A stretch of DNA of 13,165 bases from an uncultured Ruminococcus sp. (GTDB lineage Bacteria > Bacillota > Clostridia > Oscillospirales > Acutalibacteraceae). The stretch is taken from the NCBI GenBank assembly GCA_902797525.1, contig CADBSZ010000200.1:1-13165 (forward strand). The letters run 5' to 3'. Positions 1,254 to 11,278 of this stretch are shown here, piece by piece; the stretch's first letter is position 1, and the number at the start of each line of letters is the position of its first letter. The notes beneath the pieces are model-generated. The model searched no databases. It saw nothing but the letters and a program-made list of their open reading frames with translations, and was not told the DNA's origin. Made by a program: the position numbers and the translations under genes.

Positions 1254-2669
1254 TTATTTCCAAAAGGACAGCTTTGTTTCGTCAAGTCCGATGTTCTTTG
1301 CGCGGAAGGTGGGATTGAGACGGCGCTTTTTCTGCGATTCAAAATCGCGCAGCGCCTTGATTGCCACGCCGGACAAAATCAGGCAGCACGGAATATTTAT
1401 CAGCGTCATACCGCCCATAGTGATGTCCGCCATGGTCCACGCCAAATCCATGGGAACCAGCGCGCCGACAAAAATAACCGCGACGCAGCCGATATAAAAG
1501 AAGGTCATGAACTTTTTGGACGGCGGACGTTTTTTATTAAGATACGCCAGCGCGTTGTCCACGTAATACAGGTTGCCGATCAGAGTGGTGAACGCGAACA
1601 GCACCATCGCCACCGTAATAAAGACAGGACCGAAATTGCCGAAAATCGTGGAAACCGCGTTCTGCACATACGGCGCGCCCGACACATCCGCAGATCTCTC
1701 CACGCCCGAGCTCAGGCACATAAGCGCCGTGGCGGTGCAAAGGAGCATGGTGTCGATATAAACGGAAATCGTCTGCACCAAGCCCTGCTTCACGGGATGG
1801 GTAACGTCCGCAGAAGCGGAAGCGTTCGGCGCCGAACCGACGCCTGCCTCGTTGGAATACAGTCCGCGCTTGATACCGAGAATCATGCACGATCCGCTCA
1901 GCCCGCCGAAAATCGCGCGGAAGTCAAACGCGTCCTTAAAAATCGCGGCGAAGGTTTGCGGAATATTCGGAATATGCGCAAAGATAATAATCAGCGACAT
2001 CAGCACATAGGCGATGCCCATTACCGGCACAACCTTTTCGGTCAGCTTAACAATGCGCTTGCCGCCGCCCATCACGCAAAAACCGACTGCCGCCGCAAGC
2101 ACACCGCCCACAATAACGGGCGTCCAGGTGCTGTCGTAAAAGCTGTAAACAGCAAACGAGGATTGCAGGTTATAGGAACAGAGCAGATTGAAGCCAAACG
2201 CGTAGGTTGCAATCAAAAACACGCAAAATACAGCCGCAATCACAGGCAGTTTGAGCGCCTTTTCAATATAATAAGCCGGGCCGCCGAAGCTGTGGCCTTC
2301 CTTGTCCTTTTGCTTGAAAATCTGCGCGAGCGTACTTTCGATAAACGCCGACGACGCGCCGATAATGCAGAGCAGCCACATCCAGAAGCATGCGCCGGGG
2401 CCGCCCAGACAGATGGCGGTGGAAACGCCGACAATATTGCCGGTGCCGACGCGCGACGCGGTGGAAACCATCAGCGCCTGAAAGGATGAAACCTTTTGCT
2501 CGCCGGCAGGCTTTTCCACAATCAGCTTGCAGGCGGTGCCGAACAGGCGAAGCTGCACAAAGCGCGAGCGGAACGTAAAGAACAGTCCTGCCGCCGTGAG
2601 CACGATAATCAGTATCGGATAATACATCACGTCGTCAACGCGGTTCATAAAATTAATAAATGCGTCCAT
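1254..2669 (-). CDS. Sodium:alanine/glycine symporter (AGCS family)
   Basis: Secondary transporter taking up alanine and/or glycine with Na+ (or H+) across the cytoplasmic membrane. The 471 residues are usual for the family. Hallmarks in order: FRSRFVQLR (33-41); STASRVGTGNIVGV (69-82) leading into GGPGACFWMW (89-98), the signature region; SFGGPAYYIE (127-136); and RGLYSNEAGVGSAPNAS (268-284). About ten hydrophobic helices span the protein, with a basic C-terminal tail. The frame is open 19 codons further upstream to 2726, but the ATG at 2669 has AAGGGG at an ordinary distance and the extra residues (several Cys in a row) look non-coding, so I use 2669. It is a single-gene unit with its own promoter and terminator. 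The neighbouring amino-acid-handling operon makes a link to amino-acid supply conceivable, but nothing shows it. Confidence 0.95.
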   Translation of the reverse strand: MDAFINFMNRVDDVMYYPILIIVLTAAGLFFTFRSRFVQLRLFGTACKLIVEKPAGEQKVSSFQALMVSTASRVGTGNIVGVSTAICLGGPGACFWMWLLCIIGASSAFIESTLAQIFKQKDKEGHSFGGPAYYIEKALKLPVIAAVFCVFLIATYAFGFNLLCSYNLQSSFAVYSFYDSTWTPVIVGGVLAAAVGFCVMGGGKRIVKLTEKVVPVMGIAYVLMSLIIIFAHIPNIPQTFAAIFKDAFDFRAIFGGLSGSCMILGIKRGLYSNEAGVGSAPNASASADVTHPVKQGLVQTISVYIDTMLLCTATALMCLSSGVERSADVSGAPYVQNAVSTIFGNFGPVFITVAMVLFAFTTLIGNLYYVDNALAYLNKKRPPSKKFMTFFYIGCVAVIFVGALVPMDLAWTMADITMGGMTLINIPCCLILSGVAIKALRDFESQKKRRLNPTFRAKNIGLDETKLSFWK

Positions 2670-2697
2670 ATCCGTATCCCCTTTTACAGTATAATTT

Positions 2698-2726
2698 ATG
2701 TTACCACAGCAACAGCAAAAAGACAA
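2698..2726 (-). promoter_or_regulatory. Promoter of the AGCS symporter gene
   Basis: Minus strand TTGTCT (2721-2726), 17-bp spacer, TAACAT (2698-2703). A TGn just before the -10 makes it an extended -10. The predicted start is near 2691, a leader of about 22 nt carrying the ribosome binding site. A second -10-like hexamer, TATACT (2688-2693), would put the start inside the ribosome binding site and has no well-spaced -35, so it is less likely. Confidence 0.5.
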
Positions 2727-2768
2727 GGCGGAAAATGGACTTTTTTAAAATGTTATGGTGTTTCACGC

Positions 2769-2799
2769 AAAAAACCGGCTCCGAAGGGAACCGGTTTTT
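2769..2799 (-). terminator. Strong Rho-independent terminator of the six-gene operon
   Basis: About 13 nt after the last stop codon the minus strand forms a long stem with arms 2787-2799 and 2770-2782 around the loop CTTC (2783-2786). The stem is about 13 bp with one G-T pair and has a central CCGG in both arms. A run of six T follows on the transcript side. It ends the operon cleanly and isolates it from the symporter downstream. Confidence 0.9.
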
Positions 2800-2811
2800 A
2801 TGAGGATTGTT

Positions 2812-3156
2812 TTATAGCGCGTAAATCAAAATGCCGGCAACGATAATACCCAAGCCGAGCATTTTCATTTTCGAGATTTTTTCCTTGAGGAAAATCCAGC
2901 TGAAGATCGCCACAAAAATGTAGCCTGTCGCGCCGAGAATCGGTCCCATGGAGGCAGGCACTTTTTTGAAGGCAAAAATGGTAATCAGCGTTGCGATAAA
3001 GAAAATCGTGTAAGAAATAATGACGTTGAGGTTGAGATATTCCTTGATTTTACTGGAATATTTCTTATCCGCGCTCTTTTTGAGCAAAATCTGCGAAGCG
3101 GACGAAATCAGCACGCCCAACAGATAAATTCCGATAAAAATTAATTTTTCAAGCAT
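2812..3156 (-). CDS. Four-helix SMR/EamA-like membrane protein, ArnE/ArnF-like (second of a pair)
   Basis: The 114-residue protein has four helices (about 4-25, 45-63, 68-89, 98-113). Helix 1 contains SSASQILLKKSA (18-29), which resembles the S-x-x-Q-x-x-x-K pattern at the end of helix 1 in ArnE/ArnF flippase subunits and short EamA proteins. The membrane glutamate of EmrE-type drug exporters is absent from helix 1. FLKEKI (89-94) before helix 4 matches the conserved end of the DMT repeat. It starts within the end of the previous gene (8-nt overlap ATGCTTGA), which suggests translational coupling and equal synthesis of both halves. I infer one subunit of a heterodimer that moves a polyprenyl-phosphate-linked product across the membrane. 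Drug export is a less likely alternative given the glycosyltransferase just upstream. Confidence 0.82.
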   Translation of the reverse strand: MLEKLIFIGIYLLGVLISSASQILLKKSADKKYSSKIKEYLNLNVIISYTIFFIATLITIFAFKKVPASMGPILGATGYIFVAIFSWIFLKEKISKMKMLGLGIIVAGILIYAL

Positions 3157-3502
3157 CCGATTTCACCACCACAATCACGCCGGCGATAACCACTAACGCA
3201 CCGACAATTTTATTCCATGTAATCGTTTCTCCAAAGAACGTCAAGCCCCAAATAATGCCCCACGCAATCGACACCGCCTTGTTGGTGTATGCCGTGTTGA
3301 GCGGCAGGTGCTTGATAATCTGCTGCCAGCCGATGGCGTAAATGAACAAAAACAGCAAATTAAGGCCGTAGAACACAATCCACCAAAAGCTGAGAAAATC
3401 GCAGCCCGCGGCGAATTTGGAGAACACGGTGGTAAAGGACGAAATAATAATAAAGATGTGCAGGATTAAAAACCAAACGGCTTTGTTATTCGTTTTCTTC
3501 AT
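3149..3502 (-). CDS. Four-helix SMR/EamA-like membrane protein (first of a pair)
   Basis: The 117-residue protein has four helices (about 9-28, 38-57, 69-90, 97-114). The stretch PLNTAYTNKAVSIAWGII (67-84) followed by FFGETITWNKIVG (89-101) is the C-terminal half-signature of SMR and other DMT proteins. As in its partner, helix 1 has no acidic residue, so the EmrE-type proton/drug mechanism is not expected. It overlaps the glycosyltransferase gene by 17 nt and the partner gene by 8 nt. The ribosome binding site is weak (GTGATGAACG before ATG), so coupling to the upstream gene is likely. The pair plus an ArnC/GtrB-type enzyme copies the arnC-arnE/F arrangement, where ArnE/F flips undecaprenyl-phosphate-aminoarabinose. 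That role is inferred here. Confidence 0.82.
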   Translation of the reverse strand: MKKTNNKAVWFLILHIFIIISSFTTVFSKFAAGCDFLSFWWIVFYGLNLLFLFIYAIGWQQIIKHLPLNTAYTNKAVSIAWGIIWGLTFFGETITWNKIVGALVVIAGVIVVVKSDA

Positions 3503-4421
3503 CGTTCATCACTTCTCTGATTTGATACTGGGGCGCTCCGCTGACGGTCATATAAATACGGCCGATATACTCGCCGAGGAAGCCCAGAATTAACATGATT
3601 AAACCGCCGATAAACAGCAGAATACTGATGGTTGAGGTGTAGCCGACCGCGATGTTCGGCACAAAAATTTTGCGCAGCACAATGACAATCAGGCTGATCA
3701 TACCCAAAAACGCGCAGAAGATACCGAGATAGGACGCCATGCGGATGGGCGCGATGGAAAAGTTGGTGATGGTGTTCATCCACAGGTTAAACAGCTTTTT
3801 AAAGTTGTAGGTGGACGAGCCGCTCAGGCGCTTGCGGTGCTCCATTTCCACATTGGCAAACTTGCTGGTGGTTTTCATCAGATAACCTCCGATGGAAACA
3901 AACGGCGAGTTGTACTTTTTCAGTGAATCGGCGGCGAACTTGCTGTACGCCAAGAACGACGATCCGTAAATCCCCTTGGGCGAATTGCCTGCCCAAACCG
4001 CCAGTTTGCGCTGCAGCGAGCTTGTCAGGCGTTTAAACGCGGAGTGCTTTTTGCCCATAAAATGTGCATAAACCACGTCATAACCGCTGAGCACCTTTTC
4101 TGTGAGCTGAAAAATACCCTTGGGATCATGCTGTCCGTCGTCGTCCATATAGACAATAACCTCACCCTTGACATAGTTTAAGCCCGCGAGCTTTGCGGAA
4201 GCCTGACCATAGTTGCGCGACAAATCCACGCCGATAATCTTGTCGTCCGTTTTGCAGATGTCGCGGATAACGCCCAGTGTGCCGTCGGGCGAGCCGTCGT
4301 TTACCAGCACAATTTGATAATCATACTCGGGATGGTGTGTAAATTCTTCCTTGATTTCCTCCACCACGCTTGCGATTGTGTTCTGCGAACGGTAGCAGGG
4401 AATGACAATTGAAATTAACAT
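3486..4421 (-). CDS. Family 2 glycosyltransferase, polyprenyl-phosphate type (ArnC/GtrB/DPM1-like)
   Basis: Predicted to transfer a sugar or modified sugar from a nucleotide donor to polyprenyl phosphate at the inner membrane face. Numbered from the ATG at 4421 (311 aa): the GT-A domain opens with LISIVIPCY (2-10), then NDGSPDGT (41-48) and the metal/nucleotide site MDDDGQHDP (92-100). RKRLSGSSTYNFKKL (196-210) is the conserved loop before the membrane part. Two helices (about 230-250 and 263-285) and GEYIGRIY (283-290) complete the usual architecture of this subfamily. The frame extends to a GTG at 4433, but only the ATG at 4421 has a spaced GAGG. It starts 12 nt after the previous stop. The SMR pair follows immediately, so glycosyl transfer and flipping are probably coupled. 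The donor sugar cannot be read from sequence. Confidence 0.92.
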   Translation of the reverse strand: MLISIVIPCYRSQNTIASVVEEIKEEFTHHPEYDYQIVLVNDGSPDGTLGVIRDICKTDDKIIGVDLSRNYGQASAKLAGLNYVKGEVIVYMDDDGQHDPKGIFQLTEKVLSGYDVVYAHFMGKKHSAFKRLTSSLQRKLAVWAGNSPKGIYGSSFLAYSKFAADSLKKYNSPFVSIGGYLMKTTSKFANVEMEHRKRLSGSSTYNFKKLFNLWMNTITNFSIAPIRMASYLGIFCAFLGMISLIVIVLRKIFVPNIAVGYTSTISILLFIGGLIMLILGFLGEYIGRIYMTVSGAPQYQIREVMNDEENE

Positions 4422-4433
4422 GTACTGCCTCAC

Positions 4434-5459
4434 TTAAATATACAGATTGTTCTCCGTGTGAATGTTCAGTTCAGTGCCGATGTTTTGCGCCAAACAGGTT
4501 TTATACGCCTCATACGCCAGCGCAACGTCCACATACGAGAGTCCGACGGCGTTAAAGTAAATAAACTCGCTGTCGTTTTCTCTGCCCGGGCGCTTGCCGG
4601 TGATGATTTTATCCAAATCGGAGTAAATATCCTCGTCGCGCAGCAGCTCCTCCTGATACATGCGGCTGATGGTCTGGGAACGGTGCTTGACGGAGTGCCA
4701 CTGATCGCAGACGATTTTGTTCGCCTTCAGCGGAACGGCAAATTCATCCTCCCAGCCGCCGGTGTGCAAATACACCGTGCCGGGCTGAATCCAGTCCGAC
4801 TTGATAATCGGGCTTTGACCGCTGATGGCAGACACCACAATCTGAGAATTTTTGACCGCCTTTTGATAGTCGGCGTTGCAGCAGATGAACTTCACCTCGG
4901 GGAACGCTTCGGGAAACTCGGCGGCAAACTCCTGCTCGGTTTCCCCCGTGCGCGAGGAAATATAGCAGGTTCTCAGCGACGGGAACATGCTCTTAATGGC
5001 GCAGAAGGTACTGCGCGCCTGCTGTCCCGCGCCGACAAAGCCGATGCTGTGCGGATTTTTGACGGACAGATACTTCGCCGCCACGGCGTTAATGGTCGCC
5101 GTGCGCAGATTGGAGCAAACGTTGCCGTCCATAAACGCGAGGTTGGTGCCGTCCTCGATGCTGGAGAGAATCATGACGGCGTTGGTGTTGTTCAGACCGT
5201 TTGTCTTGGGGTTCGGCGGGAACACGGAAATCCACTTGACTCCGCAGATTTTTTCGTCCACCAGCGTGCCGGGCAGGCAGTTGATGCGGTTCTGCGTTTC
5301 TTGGTCGAACACCTGAGAAATCTTGTCGGGAAACAGGATTTTTCCCTTTGAAAAATCCACAATCGCCTTTTCAACGGTGTCTACCGCGCGGCTGTAGTTC
5401 AGAAAGCCGGAGCGGTAAATGTCCGCCTGCGATAAAAACAGAATGGTTTGTTTATTCAT
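4434..5459 (-). CDS. Ornithine cyclodeaminase / mu-crystallin family protein (NAD(P)-dependent, SbnB-like)
   Basis: A 341-residue cytoplasmic protein; family members are cyclodeaminases, ketimine reductases, alanine dehydrogenase or SbnB-type N-(carboxyethyl)amino-acid dehydrogenases. Visible marks: GVKWISVFPPN (73-83) with the family substrate lysine (K75), LRTATINAVAAKYL (118-131) with the family arginine (R119), dinucleotide site GFVGAGQQA (140-148), and C-terminal ITGKRPGRENDS (286-297) with GLSYVDVALAYEAY (306-319). The VKWIS-FP-N stretch recalls SbnB, but SbnA, its partner in diaminopropionate synthesis, is absent from the window. Ornithine cyclodeamination is not implied. I use the ATG at 5459 (AGGGG, 6-nt spacing) rather than the GTG at 5462, which is too close to that site. 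Lying between ligases and a glycosyltransferase, it probably makes or reduces an amino-acid building block (inference). Confidence 0.88.
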   Translation of the reverse strand: MNKQTILFLSQADIYRSGFLNYSRAVDTVEKAIVDFSKGKILFPDKISQVFDQETQNRINCLPGTLVDEKICGVKWISVFPPNPKTNGLNNTNAVMILSSIEDGTNLAFMDGNVCSNLRTATINAVAAKYLSVKNPHSIGFVGAGQQARSTFCAIKSMFPSLRTCYISSRTGETEQEFAAEFPEAFPEVKFICCNADYQKAVKNSQIVVSAISGQSPIIKSDWIQPGTVYLHTGGWEDEFAVPLKANKIVCDQWHSVKHRSQTISRMYQEELLRDEDIYSDLDKIITGKRPGRENDSEFIYFNAVGLSYVDVALAYEAYKTCLAQNIGTELNIHTENNLYI

Positions 5460-5462
5460 CAC

Positions 5463-6683
5463 TTACCCCTTTTTTAACACACAAAACAGCATTTCCTCAC
5501 CCGACTCGGACTGCACGCTCAGCTTGTTGAGAATGTCGTCAATAATACGCTGCAAATCCGCGTCGTCCTCAAACAGCACGTGGAAATACGCGAACACCTG
5601 GCTGACGGTGCCGTTTTCCACCACGGTATCGCCCGTGGAATGAATGGGAACATACTGATACAAATAGCCGCTGTTCTCCACCGCCGCTTCGCCCTCGATT
5701 TTGGCGATGGTGCCGGCGTGAAGATGGAGCGGAAGAATTCCGTAGCGCTTTTTGCTGTTGTCGTAATGCATCACGTGTTCCGGCGAGCTTTTGCCGAACG
5801 CGGCGTTTTCGAGCAGCAAATCGAGCTGCGACACGCCGGTGTAATATTCGACGGGATAGAACGTCATGGAGCCGCCAAAGCGGTAGCCCATTTCGTTAAA
5901 GTAAAAGCTGCCGTTATTGTTAAATGCCTCAATCCAAATCGGACCGTTCTGTACGCCGATGGATTCATACATTTGAATTGCCTTTTCGTTGATAGTCGCC
6001 AGATACTCCGGCTCGTTTGCGGACGGGAACCGCTGCAGCGCCATCACGGAGGAATTCTCGCACAGCGCGCCCGACTGCTTGTCGGAAATGCCGGAGAAGC
6101 AGATTTTGCCGTTGACGGCGGTGTAATGAATAATCACCGCGTCATAAGGCAAATAATCCTCAATAATCACGCGGCCTGTCGCCGAAAACGGATATGCGCG
6201 GTCATAGCCCTTTTTCAGCTCGTCGGCGTTGCGGCAAATTGAAAAGCCCTGGCTTCCGCAGCTGTCGGCAGGCTTTGTCACCACGGGATACGGCAGGTCA
6301 GCCGCGTCCTCGAGGCGGTATTGCCTTGCCGCGGGAATGCCGTTATCCAAACAAAGCTGTTTGAATTTTTCCTTGTCCATGCACAGCTCCCACTGCTCTA
6401 AGGTGCAGTAGGCAGGCAGGTTGTTGCGGTTGGCAAGCTTAATTGCATAGGGCACCAAAATTTCGTTAAAGCCCGGAAAAATCGCGTCGATGTGCTCGGT
6501 CTTAACCAAATTGTCAAGCGCTTCCAAATCAATCGCGTCAATCATGTAGGACTTGTCCGCAATACGCTTTAGGGGCGAATCCGCCACGTTGCCGACGGCG
6601 ATTAAGGTGATGTTATGCTTTTGGGCGAACGCCTTGATTTCCTTGGCACAGTTGCTGCCGCCCATAATCAACATTTTTTTCAT
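5463..6683 (-). CDS. ATP-grasp carboxylate-amine ligase (second ligase of the operon)
   Basis: The ATP-grasp fold joins a carboxylic acid to an amine or similar nucleophile through an acyl phosphate. In this 406-residue protein: N-terminal pre-ATP-grasp domain beginning MLIMGGSN (4-11); start of the central domain at CMDKEKFKQL (101-110); ATP lysine in VVTKPAD (134-140), then glycine-rich loop SCGSQGF (141-147); hinge pair VIIEDYL (172-178); metal-binding end WIEAF (250-254) and FNEMGYRFGG (262-271) with E264 and R268. The C-terminal region LPLHLHAGTIAKIEG (317-331) and beyond is like that of L-amino-acid ligases and CarB/PurK-type enzymes. The start overlaps nothing but lies 9 nt after the upstream stop, with GGAG touching that TAG. 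It differs clearly from the neighbouring ligase, so the two are not a recent duplication. Substrates are unknown. Confidence 0.9.
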   Translation of the reverse strand: MKKMLIMGGSNCAKEIKAFAQKHNITLIAVGNVADSPLKRIADKSYMIDAIDLEALDNLVKTEHIDAIFPGFNEILVPYAIKLANRNNLPAYCTLEQWELCMDKEKFKQLCLDNGIPAARQYRLEDAADLPYPVVTKPADSCGSQGFSICRNADELKKGYDRAYPFSATGRVIIEDYLPYDAVIIHYTAVNGKICFSGISDKQSGALCENSSVMALQRFPSANEPEYLATINEKAIQMYESIGVQNGPIWIEAFNNNGSFYFNEMGYRFGGSMTFYPVEYYTGVSQLDLLLENAAFGKSSPEHVMHYDNSKKRYGILPLHLHAGTIAKIEGEAAVENSGYLYQYVPIHSTGDTVVENGTVSQVFAYFHVLFEDDADLQRIIDDILNKLSVQSESGEEMLFCVLKKG

Positions 6684-6692
6684 GCTGTTCTC

Positions 6693-7796
6693 CTATTTCA
6701 AAATATAATAGCCCACGCGCGAGGAGCTGTCGATGGTGTTGCCCATGTTCTCCATTTCCAAACCGCTGATACGGTAAATGCGCTCCGGCGTTTCGCGCTT
6801 GATTTGCTCGAGCCTGTCAAGGTCGTCCTGCGTAAAAATAAAGTGGATTTCCACCTTGTCCTGCCCCGGCGTTTCCAGTACTGCGGGCGGATTGCCGCAG
6901 GCAACGTCAATCACCATTCTGACAAAATCGTTGCCGGTGGAAAGATAAACCAAATCCGAACCGATGCAATCGCCGCCCATGCGCGCGCCGATTTCAATGA
7001 TGTTAATGCTGCCGTCGGGCGCGACCTTAAACTCGGAATGGCCTGCGCTGTTTTCCACATGCAGCGCGTCGAGCGCCTTGAGCACAATTGCCTTGGCGCG
7101 CTCGTTTTCCTCATCGGTGAGATCGCTGGGCTGCATGTGCCCGGTTTCAATAAAATGCGGCGCGCCGGTAGTGAATTTTTTGGTGGTGGCAAGATAGTGG
7201 TGCACGCCGTCAAAGGAGATGGTCTCCATGCTGTATTCGTTGCCCTCAAGGTATTCCTCAACAATCGCCTTGTTCTCAAAGGACACGCTGCACGCCTCTT
7301 TCACGGCTTCTTCCACGCCTTGGGGTGATTCCAGCTTCATCACCTTGCGGCTGCCGGAGCGGTCGGTTGGCTTGACAATAACCGGGAATCGGAAATCGCG
7401 GAGCGCCTCGGCGGAAAAGCTCTCGTCCGCCAAAACGAATTTCGGGCACGCAACGCCTGCCTGCTGCATGGCGGCGCGCATTTTGTATTTGTTGGTCTGA
7501 ATGTCGGTGTAGGCGGTTTTGTTGCACGGAAGTCCCAAATGCTCCGCCACATAGTTGACCGTGATGGACGCCAAATCCGAGGCGATGGAGCACACGCCGC
7601 AGGGCTGAATGCCGCGGCAGATGTCTAAAATCTGCTCCTTTTCCACAATGCTGATGGGATAAAAGTAATCGGCGTTTTCCTTGCCGACCGCGCCGTTCTC
7701 CCACGCGAACACGTGCGTTTCATAGCCAAGCGATTTTGCTTCCAGAATGAGCCTGTTTTGAAAATCATTGGCTCCGATGATGACTAGTTTTTTCAT
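6693..7796 (-). CDS. ATP-grasp carboxylate-amine ligase (first gene of the operon)
   Basis: A 367-residue cytoplasmic ligase. It opens with KLVIIGANDFQ (3-13), a Rossmann-like pre-ATP-grasp domain. The ATP-grasp core has NKYKMRAAMQQAG (102-114), the ATP lysine in PVIVKPTDRSGSRKV (138-152), the hinge AIVEEYLEGNEYSMET (177-192), a substrate region TKKFTTGAPHFIETGH (205-220), and metal ligands near HSEFKV (253-258) and IIEIGARMGG (266-275). The short C-terminus ends in DSSSRVGYYIL (356-366), lacking the long terminal lobe of the next ligase. Motif spacing is that of amino-acid ligase and CarB-like enzymes. The ATG has AGGG at 6 nt. It lies about 64 nt after the predicted transcription start. It could couple two amino acids or attach one to a sugar or carrier; the sequence does not decide. 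Confidence 0.9.
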   Translation of the reverse strand: MKKLVIIGANDFQNRLILEAKSLGYETHVFAWENGAVGKENADYFYPISIVEKEQILDICRGIQPCGVCSIASDLASITVNYVAEHLGLPCNKTAYTDIQTNKYKMRAAMQQAGVACPKFVLADESFSAEALRDFRFPVIVKPTDRSGSRKVMKLESPQGVEEAVKEACSVSFENKAIVEEYLEGNEYSMETISFDGVHHYLATTKKFTTGAPHFIETGHMQPSDLTDEENERAKAIVLKALDALHVENSAGHSEFKVAPDGSINIIEIGARMGGDCIGSDLVYLSTGNDFVRMVIDVACGNPPAVLETPGQDKVEIHFIFTQDDLDRLEQIKRETPERIYRISGLEMENMGNTIDSSSRVGYYILK

Positions 7797-7836
7797 GAAT
7801 ATCCCTGATTCAATCTTAAAATAATACTGTTTTGTC

Positions 7837-7855
7837 GCGCTGATGACACCAACGC
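7837..7855 (-). other. Small hairpin in the leader of the six-gene operon
   Basis: On the transcript strand GCGTTG and CAGCGC form a 6-bp stem (one G-T pair) around the 7-nt loop GTGTCAT, just after the predicted start near 7860. It is too small and too far from a T-run to be a terminator. It may simply protect the 5' end or be fortuitous. Confidence 0.3.
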
Positions 7856-7866
7856 ATGTTTATTTA

Positions 7867-7895
7867 ATTGTACTACAACGCAAAATGAATGTCAA
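7867..7895 (-). promoter_or_regulatory. Near-consensus sigma-A promoter of the six-gene operon
   Basis: Minus strand TTGACA (7890-7895, perfect), 17-bp spacer, TACAAT (7867-7872, 5 of 6). This is the best promoter match in the window. It lies between the recQ terminator and the first ligase gene and predicts a start near 7860 with a leader of about 64 nt. Its strength suggests steady, substantial expression unless a regulator not visible here intervenes. Confidence 0.85.
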
Positions 7896-7935
7896 TAAAA
7901 ACGGCTTGTTGTCGCATATTTCGTGAAGTGGCATA

Positions 7936-7972
7936 AAAACAAAAAGCCGAGGGGAAGAATCCTCTCGACTTT
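7936..7972 (-). terminator. Rho-independent terminator after recQ
   Basis: Ten nt after the recQ stop the transcript strand forms a 12-position stem (arms 7961-7972 and 7943-7954; one A-C mismatch, one T-G pair) around the loop ATTCTT. TTTTTGTTTTT follows on the downstream side. It separates the recQ operon from the six-gene operon, whose promoter begins about 40 nt further on. Confidence 0.88.
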
Positions 7973-9850: not shown

Positions 9851-11245
9851 TTAATTGCCGGGCCTCAATGCGCAATAAGTTCCGGATTCAGCCAATTTTT
9901 GACGAACATATTGATAACGTTTACAAACACTGTTCAATTCCGCCTGTCCTTCCGGCTCACATCCGAGCTTCCACGGAATTTGCGTCTTATCCAGTTGCGG
10001 CGGACGTTCGTTGATTTCATTCCGAACCATTTTTTCAATCTCATCTTTTTTACCCAGATCGTCCAGTTCGCAAACTTCTTCTGTTTTAACTTGCGTCATA
10101 TGAAGGGATACTTCGTATGAGTGCACCATTGTCATTGCTTCCTGTATGATTTCCTCCATCAGTTTTTTGGTAACCGGTTGGTTATCCGAAGTGATCATTC
10201 CTTCCTGCTCACTCCATTCTCCGATATGCTTCAACCGGCAGATAGCCGTATTTAAAACCGAATACGCCCGAAGTTGATACGGCAGGTGATCCTGAACGCC
10301 GTATTCTTTCAGCGTATCCTTGTTCCATACACGTTCATCCACAGAGTAATTCCATGTAAAAAGAAAATACAGCGTAAAAACAGAAAGTGACAACTCCTCT
10401 GCAAGGTCGTCAAGCGAAATCTCCAGTTGATGATTCTCGCTTTCCAAAAACCGCGCGCCTATTGTCCAGCACACTGCCTGAATGTCCGCCTCGTTTTCTT
10501 CGCAACGGATGTTTTCTACATCAGACTTAAACACGTGGTCTTTTTCATTTAAATCAAGATGTCCTAATCCTACATGCGCCAGCTCGTGAGAAATCAGCAT
10601 TTTAACAGCTGTATGAAAAATCGTTGCCGGAATATCATGCCTTGTTTCAAAATACTTATCAAACGGCTTCAGACGATATATCGGTGCCCGAAACTGATAT
10701 GCTACTCTTTTAACGCCGTCTTTGTTCTCAATAATTTGCGGATTATCATCAAACAATTCACACAGCTTTTTCATAAACAAAGCCAAAAAAGAGTTTTCAA
10801 ACTCTATCACATAATGCGGACGAAGCGCTGCTCCGTACTGATTAACAGTCGCAGACGGATAAGCGGAGCTCACCGAAGAAGCGAGCGATTTTATGCGAAG
10901 CTGCACATAAGGAATCTGTCCGCAATAGGGCAAAACCTCGTGCGTTTCGGGATTGCGCATCGCGTTATTGTAATTGCGGATTGTGTTAATCAGCTCATAG
11001 GACAACCAAAGATAATTTGCATTGTCATAACTCGTCAAATCATCCTCGCGCGGCAATTGAAGCCCATATGAGTCATTGTGTTTTTTGAGAAATGCAATCA
11101 AATCACTTTTCAGCTCATCGGATAAATGAACCCATTGACGGTTAATCTCATCCTCGCCTTCGCCTAAGGGCGAAATCGTGGACAAAAAGTAAAAATCATT
11201 ACTTTTCCCATTGCCGCGATAGGTACTGTCGTTATCCCACCACAT
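9851..11245 (-). CDS. Putative zinc metallopeptidase (HExxH), family not recognised
   Basis: A 464-residue protein with no signal peptide or clear membrane helix, so probably cytoplasmic. The one clear motif is SHELAHVGLGHLD (219-231): an HExxH zinc site at 220-224 with an extra His at 229. CEENEADIQA (248-257) follows, whose E252 could be the third zinc ligand and D254 the usual companion, an arrangement of the gluzincin type seen in ImmA/IrrE, M48 and Lit-like (U49) peptidases. I cannot place the protein in one of these. The N-terminal 200 residues and the charged C-terminal third (about 355-455) match nothing I know. The ATG at 11245 has GGAGG 7 nt before it, so I prefer it to the GTG at 11263. 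Base composition is patchily A+T-rich (17 G/C in 10741-10800 versus 34 in 9241-9300 of recQ), which hints at separate ancestry. It sits 33 nt after the MATE gene. Confidence 0.75.
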   Translation of the reverse strand: MWWDNDSTYRGNGKSNDFYFLSTISPLGEGEDEINRQWVHLSDELKSDLIAFLKKHNDSYGLQLPREDDLTSYDNANYLWLSYELINTIRNYNNAMRNPETHEVLPYCGQIPYVQLRIKSLASSVSSAYPSATVNQYGAALRPHYVIEFENSFLALFMKKLCELFDDNPQIIENKDGVKRVAYQFRAPIYRLKPFDKYFETRHDIPATIFHTAVKMLISHELAHVGLGHLDLNEKDHVFKSDVENIRCEENEADIQAVCWTIGARFLESENHQLEISLDDLAEELSLSVFTLYFLFTWNYSVDERVWNKDTLKEYGVQDHLPYQLRAYSVLNTAICRLKHIGEWSEQEGMITSDNQPVTKKLMEEIIQEAMTMVHSYEVSLHMTQVKTEEVCELDDLGKKDEIEKMVRNEINERPPQLDKTQIPWKLGCEPEGQAELNSVCKRYQYVRQKLAESGTYCALRPGN

Positions 11246-11278
11246 AAACACTCCTCCTTCCACCTTTTTGATTTATCA

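Follow-up and report, generated by a model that had tools for sequence, protein, structure and literature searches.

A six-gene operon of an uncultured Ruminococcus that may make and export a lipid-linked amino sugar with an amino-acid-derived cap

A stretch of 13,165 nucleotides from an uncultured Ruminococcus sp. (contig CADBSZ010000200.1, assembly GCA_902797525.1; hereafter the window) was analyzed, where a minus-strand operon was found to join two ATP-grasp ligases (LIG1 and LIG2) and an OCD/mu-crystallin family oxidoreductase (OCD) to a GT2 glycosyltransferase and two small SMR-like membrane proteins (SMR1 and SMR2). The window is the entire contig C200 of an incomplete genome, G000 (1.5 Mb in 247 contigs, 81% complete); in the labels used here, G stands for genomes, C for contigs, and L for fetched loci or stretches. 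Calling of open reading frames in the window identified six intact frames from position 7796 to 2812, in the order LIG1-LIG2-OCD-GT2-SMR1-SMR2. With ATG starts, the sequence reads as gaps of 9, 3, and 12 nt followed by overlaps of 17 and 8 nt. The candidate promoter (TTGACA-17-TACAAT; 7867..7895, minus strand) matches 11 of 12 positions and ranked at the top of the 28 promoter-like sites found in a scan of the window, against 13.2 +/- 4.0 expected. A weaker site matching 10 of 12 positions lies within the end of LIG1 (6733-6705), so an internal transcription start ahead of LIG2 may be present. The operon closes with a predicted terminator hairpin and T run (2764..2802, minus strand; -19.1 kcal/mol, z -4.95, none of 200 shuffles as good), and a second hairpin (7932..7972, minus strand; -15.4 kcal/mol, z -4.3) appears to terminate the upstream recQ and thereby insulate the operon. 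Both hairpins were missed by a general signal scan because the T run begins within the stem or a bulge is present. No Rfam element reached its gathering score in the window. Hence, the original prediction of six packed minus-strand genes, overlapping or no more than 12 nt apart, between a strong promoter-like site and a strong terminator was borne out by the open frames, the protein families, the gene order of a relative, and these two signals.

That relative is a second genome of the same genus, G667, in which a search for the six families recovered LIG1-LIG2-OCD-GT2-SMR1-SMR2 in identical order on contig C84, followed by an AGCS symporter gene. Measured against this single close relative, all six genes are under purifying selection, with dN/dS from 0.05 to 0.11 at dS values of 1.1-2.1, near saturation. 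A chance assembly of the operon was rejected on the basis of the shared order, the dN/dS values, and a clade of GT2 proteins described below. LIG2 at 79% identity or more was found in two of 161 genus genomes (G000 and G667), nine others having matches of 25-32%, and OCD matches at E<=1e-20 occurred in six of 300 family genomes including G000, the others being 24-32% identical.

Ten window proteins were scanned against Pfam and NCBIfam, comprising an AGCS symporter, RecQ, a MATE protein, one unassigned protein, and the six operon proteins. LIG1 (6693..7796, minus strand), proposed to acylate an amino sugar, is a predicted ATP-grasp carboxylate-amine ligase (PF13535, 72 bits) whose nearest PDB relative is the L-amino acid ligase BL00235 (3vot, E 7e-23). 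LIG2 (5463..6683, minus strand), proposed to couple an opine carboxylate to an amino acid, had weaker Pfam matches, with PF02786 and PF07478 barely above and PF13535 barely below the cut-off, and was placed by its family profile, which aligned end to end with PDB 4dim as the best match (E 1e-30). That entry is named phosphoribosylglycinamide synthetase, a name that is perhaps wrong, and it is a possible template for the LIG2 family. Both ligases thus carry an ATP-grasp domain above a Pfam cut-off together with conserved ligand residues: E264-x-G-x-R268 is almost or wholly invariant in LIG2, and E268-x3-R272 is invariant in LIG1. We take these glutamates and arginines to bind metal or phosphate.

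The OCD gene (4434..5462 from a GTG, with the ATG at 5459 likelier; minus strand) encodes a proposed opine-forming dehydrogenase and a clear member of PF02423 (169 bits against a gathering cut-off of 24). Its best PDB match was 4m54; an archaeal alanine dehydrogenase was also near, and pyrroline-2-carboxylate reductase was among the matches. Ornithine cyclodeaminase activity was rejected, as the scores reached 66 of 350 bits for PRK07589, 152 of 417 for PRK08618, and 82 of 438 for PRK06823.

The GT2 protein (3486..4433 from a GTG, with the ATG at 4421 likelier; minus strand; PF00535, 98 bits) is a predicted polyprenyl-phosphate glycosyltransferase with PgfS, ArnC, and sll0501 as its nearest relatives; the PgfS and ArnC models scored 169 bits each, under their cut-offs. 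SMR1 (3149..3502, minus strand) and SMR2 (2812..3156, minus strand) are proposed to be the halves of a flippase. The EamA threshold was passed by SMR2 only (43 bits), and the pair was kept in G667 and in the sister clusters described below. A module like that of the Arn pathway had been predicted from these three genes. Relatedness to ArnC, ArnE, and ArnF stood; the scores were far under the cut-offs, at 168.7 of 529 bits for the ArnC equivalog, which makes GT2 a relative rather than ArnC itself, 29.2 of 92 for ArnE against SMR2 (29 bits in the feature scan), and 30.3 of 99 for ArnF against SMR1 (30 bits). A plain Arn pathway was therefore rejected. The acceptor is more likely 4-amino-4,6-dideoxygalactose (Fuc4N) than an Arn-type pentose. 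None of ArnA, ArnB, ArnD, and ArnT was among the ten scanned window proteins, with no genome-wide search made for each of them.

A candidate source of the sugar was found in a sister module. Apart from the window's own GT2 and its 91% identical counterpart in G667, a second GT2 of 39-45% identity is carried by 12 of 60 genus genomes, G000 and G667 included, and all 12 stretches were fetched (L106-L117). The order aminotransferase-GNAT-GT2-SMR1-SMR2-polytopic membrane protein-RmlA-RmlB was observed in L107, L111, L112, L114, L116, and L241-L244, with an extra frame in L243 and two membrane proteins in L241 and L242. It ran to the contig limit in L106 and L109, was partial in L110 and L115, comprised only aminotransferase-GNAT-GT2 in L108, and was different in L113 and L117. 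Annotation was by Pfam on L111 and by our own hidden Markov models (HMMs) and protein lengths on the other stretches. The L107 aminotransferase passed the NCBIfam model for dTDP-4-amino-4,6-dideoxygalactose transaminase (WecE-type; 645 bits against 375), and its GNAT narrowly passed PseH (96.7 against 93.1 bits); these matches suggest that a lipid-linked, N-acylated 4-amino-4,6-dideoxyhexose is the most likely product assembled and flipped by the sister module. The tandem polytopic proteins of L241 and L242 look as if they served two acceptors. In L113 (124-12412), GT2-SMR-SMR occurs with an aminotransferase, an acyltransferase, an ATP-grasp protein, an epimerase, a cytidylyltransferase, an HMGL-like protein, a PfkB kinase, and RmlA/B/D; this cluster might represent a third type of cap in the genus.

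In G000 the sister module lies in pieces, with the aminotransferase, which shares 87% identity with its G667 counterpart, at the end of C66, GNAT-GT2-SMR-SMR-membrane protein-RmlA on C162, and RmlB at the end of C222; by analogy with G667, these pieces presumably adjoin. One WecE-type aminotransferase (L107 as query) and one RmlB were found at E<=1e-20 in each of the two genomes. The expectation that nucleotide-sugar enzymes would be encoded outside the operon was thus upheld by RmlA on C162 and by RmlB and the WecE-type aminotransferase at the ends of C222 and C66. The accompanying expectation of a final transferase elsewhere held in part: a polytopic membrane protein occupies that place on C162, without a firm family match.

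Orthologues of LIG1 connect the operon with this sugar. The window LIG1 is 55% identical to the LIG1 of L235 and 53% to that of L231, both of which lie close to WecE. In L231, WecE-LIG1 are on one strand and LIG2-GT2 adjoin them on the opposite strand; the transcribed order in L235 is Wzx-LIG2-reductase-aminotransferase-WecE-(RmlB-like, 50 bits)-SMR1-SMR2-GT2-LIG1-RmlA-RmlB. In each case, one locus seems to unite functions that the genome of the window would draw from two. Since LIG1 orthologues lie near WecE in these two other species, LIG1 most likely acts with Fuc4N.

The GT2 phylogeny comprised 26 sequences. The ligase-associated GT2s of the window, L104, L105, L118, L119, L169, and L231 formed one clade spanning three families (support 99/99), and a branch with support 83/76 set the 14 GNAT-associated GT2s to one side, apart from it. 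Most GT2s found where the ligase and GT2 halves meet thus belong to a distinct clade, indicating that the combination is not accidental. The two halves are nonetheless separable modules, as the GT2 was present within six genes in seven of 36 LIG2-seeded places and in one of six loci where LIG2 adjoins OCD (L010). The conservation of the neighborhood, which had been named as a possible refutation, therefore proved mixed: the halves are infrequent neighbors, and the GT2s that do meet ligases mostly belong to one clade.

Of the 36 seeded places, 19 had a sugar aminotransferase gene within six genes of LIG2, 15 had one of LIG1 type, four had OCD, and two had Octopine_DH, as counted with our own HMMs at thresholds of at least 150 bits for the aminotransferase and at least 300 bits for this GT2. 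A search of genome contigs for OCD returned 61 loci, of which six have LIG2 adjoining OCD (L010, L011, L021, L043, L063, and L065); four others (L024, L031, L044, and L059) contain neither an OCD-labeled frame nor LIG2 and stand outside the OCD tree. L184 yielded no gene calls. L021 reads Wzx-LIG1-LIG2-OCD-aminotransferase-RmlA-RmlB and L011 Wzx-LIG1-LIG2-OCD-aminotransferase; both aminotransferases scored best, under the cut-off, with DesI (4-dehydro-6-deoxyglucose aminotransferase) rather than WecE. These ligase-aminotransferase-Rml neighborhoods and the GT2 clade lend support to the original prediction that a lipid-linked sugar receives an amino-acid-derived substituent. Near LIG1 and LIG2 relatives in L122, L161, L162, L163, L168, L232, and L240, mostly between them, lies a gene for a protein of about 300-320 amino acids that is absent from the window; the two members scanned (L122 and L232) had no Pfam match. 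In the class genomes of L173-L176, L178, L179, L187, and L191, a GT2 gene stands beside one of LIG1 type, frequently together with an aminotransferase gene, and next come genes for proteins of about 310-320, 260, and 240 amino acids.

The OCD phylogeny included 77 rows, 74 of them differing. Seven OCD proteins from the ligase cassettes formed a clade (97/95) drawn from Bacillota and, by record title, Bacteroidota; L021 fell just outside (88/41) and L232 was distant. The L232 protein, which lies beside LIG2, comes from a different OCD branch and scores above the PRK06199 cut-off; it is thus an independent recruitment. An aminotransferase was found within six genes of six of the nine cassette rows, against three of the 68 non-cassette rows (two of seven near Octopine_DH, none of ten near flavin subunits, one of 51 near neither); since the samples differ, these counts are a contrast and no test. 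Among the 68 non-cassette rows, a few of which share one contig, 10 are near subunits of flavin opine-oxidase type, seven (five loci) near Octopine_DH, and 51 near neither, so stand-alone OCD relatives, once considered as proof of opine chemistry, were downgraded to a hint. Flavin subunits of this type also serve cyanide synthase. They likewise serve hydroxyproline and other enzymes (PMC4575208). The flavin neighbors occur near OCD relatives of Pseudomonadota (L014, L020, L025, L026, L033, L038, L047, L048, L053, and L056) and resemble the Fer2_4, FAD/BFD, and, in seven loci, DAO subunits of flavin opine dehydrogenase, annotated by Pfam on L033 and by our own HMMs elsewhere.

True Octopine_DH genes recur close to LIG2. 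Octopine_DH (PF02317, cut-off 30 bits) adjoins LIG2 in L240 (94 bits) and L090 (110 bits), lies two genes away in L238 (146 bits), and six genes away in L063 (112 bits); L063 also has an OCD, and the other three clusters do not. Its two occurrences in the 36 LIG2-seeded places compare with 0.04 expected (P ~8e-4), the expectation being based on 23 matches in 99 class genomes, 373 neighbor genes, and an assumed ~2100 genes per genome. In L238 (8928-16598), which is of the same genus, LIG2, an MR_MLE enolase-superfamily gene, and Octopine_DH are consecutive, with a LIG1-type gene farther on; in L012 and L035, paired OCD genes are likewise bordered by MR_MLE and Octopine_DH. An amino-acid permease gene lies between the dehydrogenase and the aminotransferase in L232 and L240.

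The chemistry of known surface glycans provided further context. The sugar at the end of the Clostridioides difficile type B flagellin glycan, Fuc3N, is reported to be acylated by glycine, followed by an alanine with an alkylated nitrogen and taurine; the main text calls this cap taurinyl-Ala-Gly and the product a peptidyl-amido sugar (PMC5207245). The second paper reports that the cap is lost when CDR20291_0245 (ATP-grasp) or 0246 (OCD-family) is mutated, and that 0247 resembles FdtB and 0244 resembles FemAB (PMC5207246). By our own reading of the published structure, the alkylated alanine unit corresponds to N-(1-carboxyethyl)taurine, that is, tauropine. The words opine and tauropine were not found in the main texts of the two papers, and no paper in the literature collection searched contained both tauropine and difficile. 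The tauropine dehydrogenase of marine sponges is described as a homologue of the OCD/mu-crystallin family (PMC4575208; PMC4113996; PMC3840593), and the O-antigen of Providencia alcalifaciens O35 contains an alanopine derivative of 4-amino-4,6-dideoxyglucose (as cited in PMC10609480).

From the protein families and their genomic places, we infer the following reactions. The OCD enzyme would use NAD(P)H for the reductive condensation of an amino compound with a 2-keto acid, for example pyruvate, yielding an N-carboxyalkyl amino acid, or opine. LIG2 would activate the opine carboxylate and couple it to a second amino acid, and LIG1 would couple the product to the 4-amino group of dTDP-Fuc4N, although the two roles could be exchanged. 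The dTDP-Fuc4N would be supplied by RmlA, RmlB, and the WecE-type aminotransferase, whose genes are present elsewhere in the genome, and the cap would replace the acetyl group added by GNAT in the sister cluster. By their families and places, GT2 would then transfer the capped sugar to polyprenyl phosphate, the SMR pair would flip it outward, and a membrane transferase, perhaps the polytopic protein of C162, would place it on a surface acceptor. The firmer part, which we regard as likely, is that a capped, lipid-linked amino sugar is produced and exported by the operon. The opine step is the bolder part, supported by the Octopine_DH genes near LIG2, the family of the sponge tauropine dehydrogenase, the C. 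difficile cap, and the alanopine of P. alcalifaciens; with this step included, the proposal is still favored, at more modest confidence.

Several observations weigh against the opine-capped product or parts of its route. The OCD scored below every curated equivalog it matched (alanine dehydrogenase, 182 of 409 bits; SbnB, 181 of 327), so its substrate is not readable from these models. The four LIG2-seeded places with a nearby OCD include the window and G667 themselves. A cassette-OCD profile found nine other genomes among 391 of the class (E<=1e-70), with LIG2 near none of the ten places; OCD as a constant partner of the ligases was rejected on these two counts. The corresponding slot in L235 is taken by an ApbA/PanE reductase with no opine enzyme, which argues for variety rather than opines alone. 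In 17 of the 36 places, some at contig ends, no aminotransferase lies within six genes. The LIG1-type proteins of L011, L021, L065, and L161 are only 24-34% identical to that of the window, so these four cassettes need not perform the same step; the ATP-grasp protein of L113 is 22% identical. The ligase clade leaves out three of ten ligase-associated GT2s (L113, L176, and L235), and the amino-sugar genes of G000 lie on three contigs other than the window. The polytopic membrane protein is present in both operon carriers versus 32 of 161 genus genomes, a weak association (P ~0.04 by our own arithmetic), and the two carriers may be sisters. The C162 copy matches no family firmly, and a PDB profile search returned nothing at E<=5. 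Pfam matches among 35 relatives were scattered (one GT87, E 0.0013; one EpsG, E 0.00036; seven DltX, best E 0.019), and a GT-C fold is thus a guess.

The order of steps and the sugar could differ from this scheme. The cap may be added once the sugar has been loaded on the lipid (polyprenyl-phosphate-Fuc4N or -Qui4N), or a different sugar may take the place of Fuc4N; the nucleotide sugar would come from another source. The operon itself contains no nucleotide-sugar gene, and the DesI-like aminotransferases of L021 and L011 would suit such a course; the proximity of LIG1 orthologues to WecE and the WecE type of the single aminotransferase found in G000 and G667 with the L107 query (E<=1e-20) speak against it, and we consider it rather unlikely.

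Slightly less credible still is a version in which the same capped amino sugar is made and the OCD yields an ordinary amino acid, either alanine or, through reduction of a cyclic imine, proline or pipecolate, so that the ligases attach a plain amino acid or a dipeptide. In a survey of peptide-ligase neighborhoods, an OCD is interpreted as a source of proline (PMC2922099). The window OCD matches the alanine dehydrogenase and SbnB models about equally, followed by pyrroline-2-carboxylate reductase, its PDB matches include both kinds of enzyme, and an alanine symporter adjoins the operon. Against this stand the four clusters with Octopine_DH close to LIG2 and the N-alkylated alanine of the published C. 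difficile cap, which requires a step beyond plain alanine synthesis. A soluble peptide-like metabolite (a siderophore or signal) made by the ligases and OCD and exported by the SMR pair, with GT2 serving a separate function on a shared transcript, would suit the best PDB match of the OCD, 4m54, which we take to be SbnB of staphyloferrin B synthesis, and SMR proteins often export small amines, but it is very improbable given the clade of ligase-associated GT2s, the recurrence of ligase relatives among aminotransferase, RmlA, RmlB, and Wzx genes, and the SMR pairs that follow GT2s of this family where a cluster lacks OCD.

Opines may recur as building units in the surface glycans of bacteria. 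In this view, an opine-forming dehydrogenase (OCD-family or Octopine_DH) and ATP-grasp ligases would make up a mobile cassette that caps amino sugars with N-carboxyalkyl amino acids and supplies Wzx-type polysaccharides, flagellin glycans, or, as in the window, a lipid-linked monosaccharide branch served by a dedicated GT2 and SMR flippase. In C. difficile type B, the cap would then be a tauropine-glycine amide whose opine is produced by CDR20291_0246 and attached by 0245. This generalization is tentative, and we would put it at somewhat less than even. The proposed scheme links genes concretely to the chemistry of decorations known chemically, namely opine and peptidyl amides on amino sugars; it predicts that a C. 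difficile gene of unassigned function makes tauropine. In addition, GT2-SMR-SMR would represent one lipid-carrier module with exchangeable caps, acetyl by GNAT or amino-acid-derived by ligases, and most of the GT2s would have diverged accordingly.

Two other window genes deserve mention. Next downstream of the operon, and outside the transcript as drawn, is an AGCS sodium:alanine symporter (1254..2726, minus strand; TIGR00835, 448 bits), a possible supplier of the operon's amino acid; its 90% identical counterpart also adjoins SMR2 in G667. On the minus strand at 9851-11263 lies a gene for a 470-amino-acid protein without a Pfam or NCBIfam match, with a third-position GC of 45% compared with 57-73% in ten other measured genes. 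It contains a HELAH stretch that presumably resembles a zinc-metalloprotease motif.

The proposed system was compared with five known ones. The WecE/GNAT clusters of the genus (L107, L111, and others) share a paralogous GT2-SMR-SMR block and a 4-amino-4,6-dideoxyhexose nucleotide pathway; they differ in that an acetyl group via GNAT replaces the ligase/OCD cargo, and their GT2s fall in a separate group of the tree. ArnC/ArnE/ArnF of lipid A aminoarabinose modification likewise place a polyprenyl-phosphate GT2 before two small SMR-type proteins for loading and flipping, with a different cargo and with the missing partners and low scores noted above. The sponge tauropine dehydrogenase belongs to the same protein family as the window OCD and makes an opine; it is an animal energy-metabolism enzyme, likened here by family and from descriptions. 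The opine O-antigen reported for P. alcalifaciens O35 carries an opine on a 4-amino-4,6-dideoxyhexose, as proposed here; being a Gram-negative O-antigen, it is likened by chemistry alone.

The closest precedent is the C. difficile type B flagellin locus. The gene set had been thought to have no characterized counterpart, a view that no longer holds, as the main texts of the two reports describe ATP-grasp, OCD-family, and aminotransferase genes consecutively at this locus (PMC5207245; PMC5207246). Within CDR20291_0244-0247, the ATP-grasp gene is followed by the OCD-family and then the sugar aminotransferase gene, as in LIG2-OCD-aminotransferase of L021 and L011, and the reported cap, lost in mutants of the first two, sits on an amino-dideoxyhexose. 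In the window, LIG2 is likewise followed directly by OCD, 3 nt apart; the sugar aminotransferase, which adjoins OCD in L021 and L011, does not adjoin it in the operon, and one of WecE type is found elsewhere in G000. The C. difficile locus, likened to the window from its descriptions, has a flagellin target, the glycosyltransferase GT3, and a FemAB-like gene. Neither a FemAB-like gene nor fliC was among the ten scanned window proteins; instead, the operon has a second ATP-grasp ligase, to which a polyprenyl-phosphate GT2 and an SMR pair are added.

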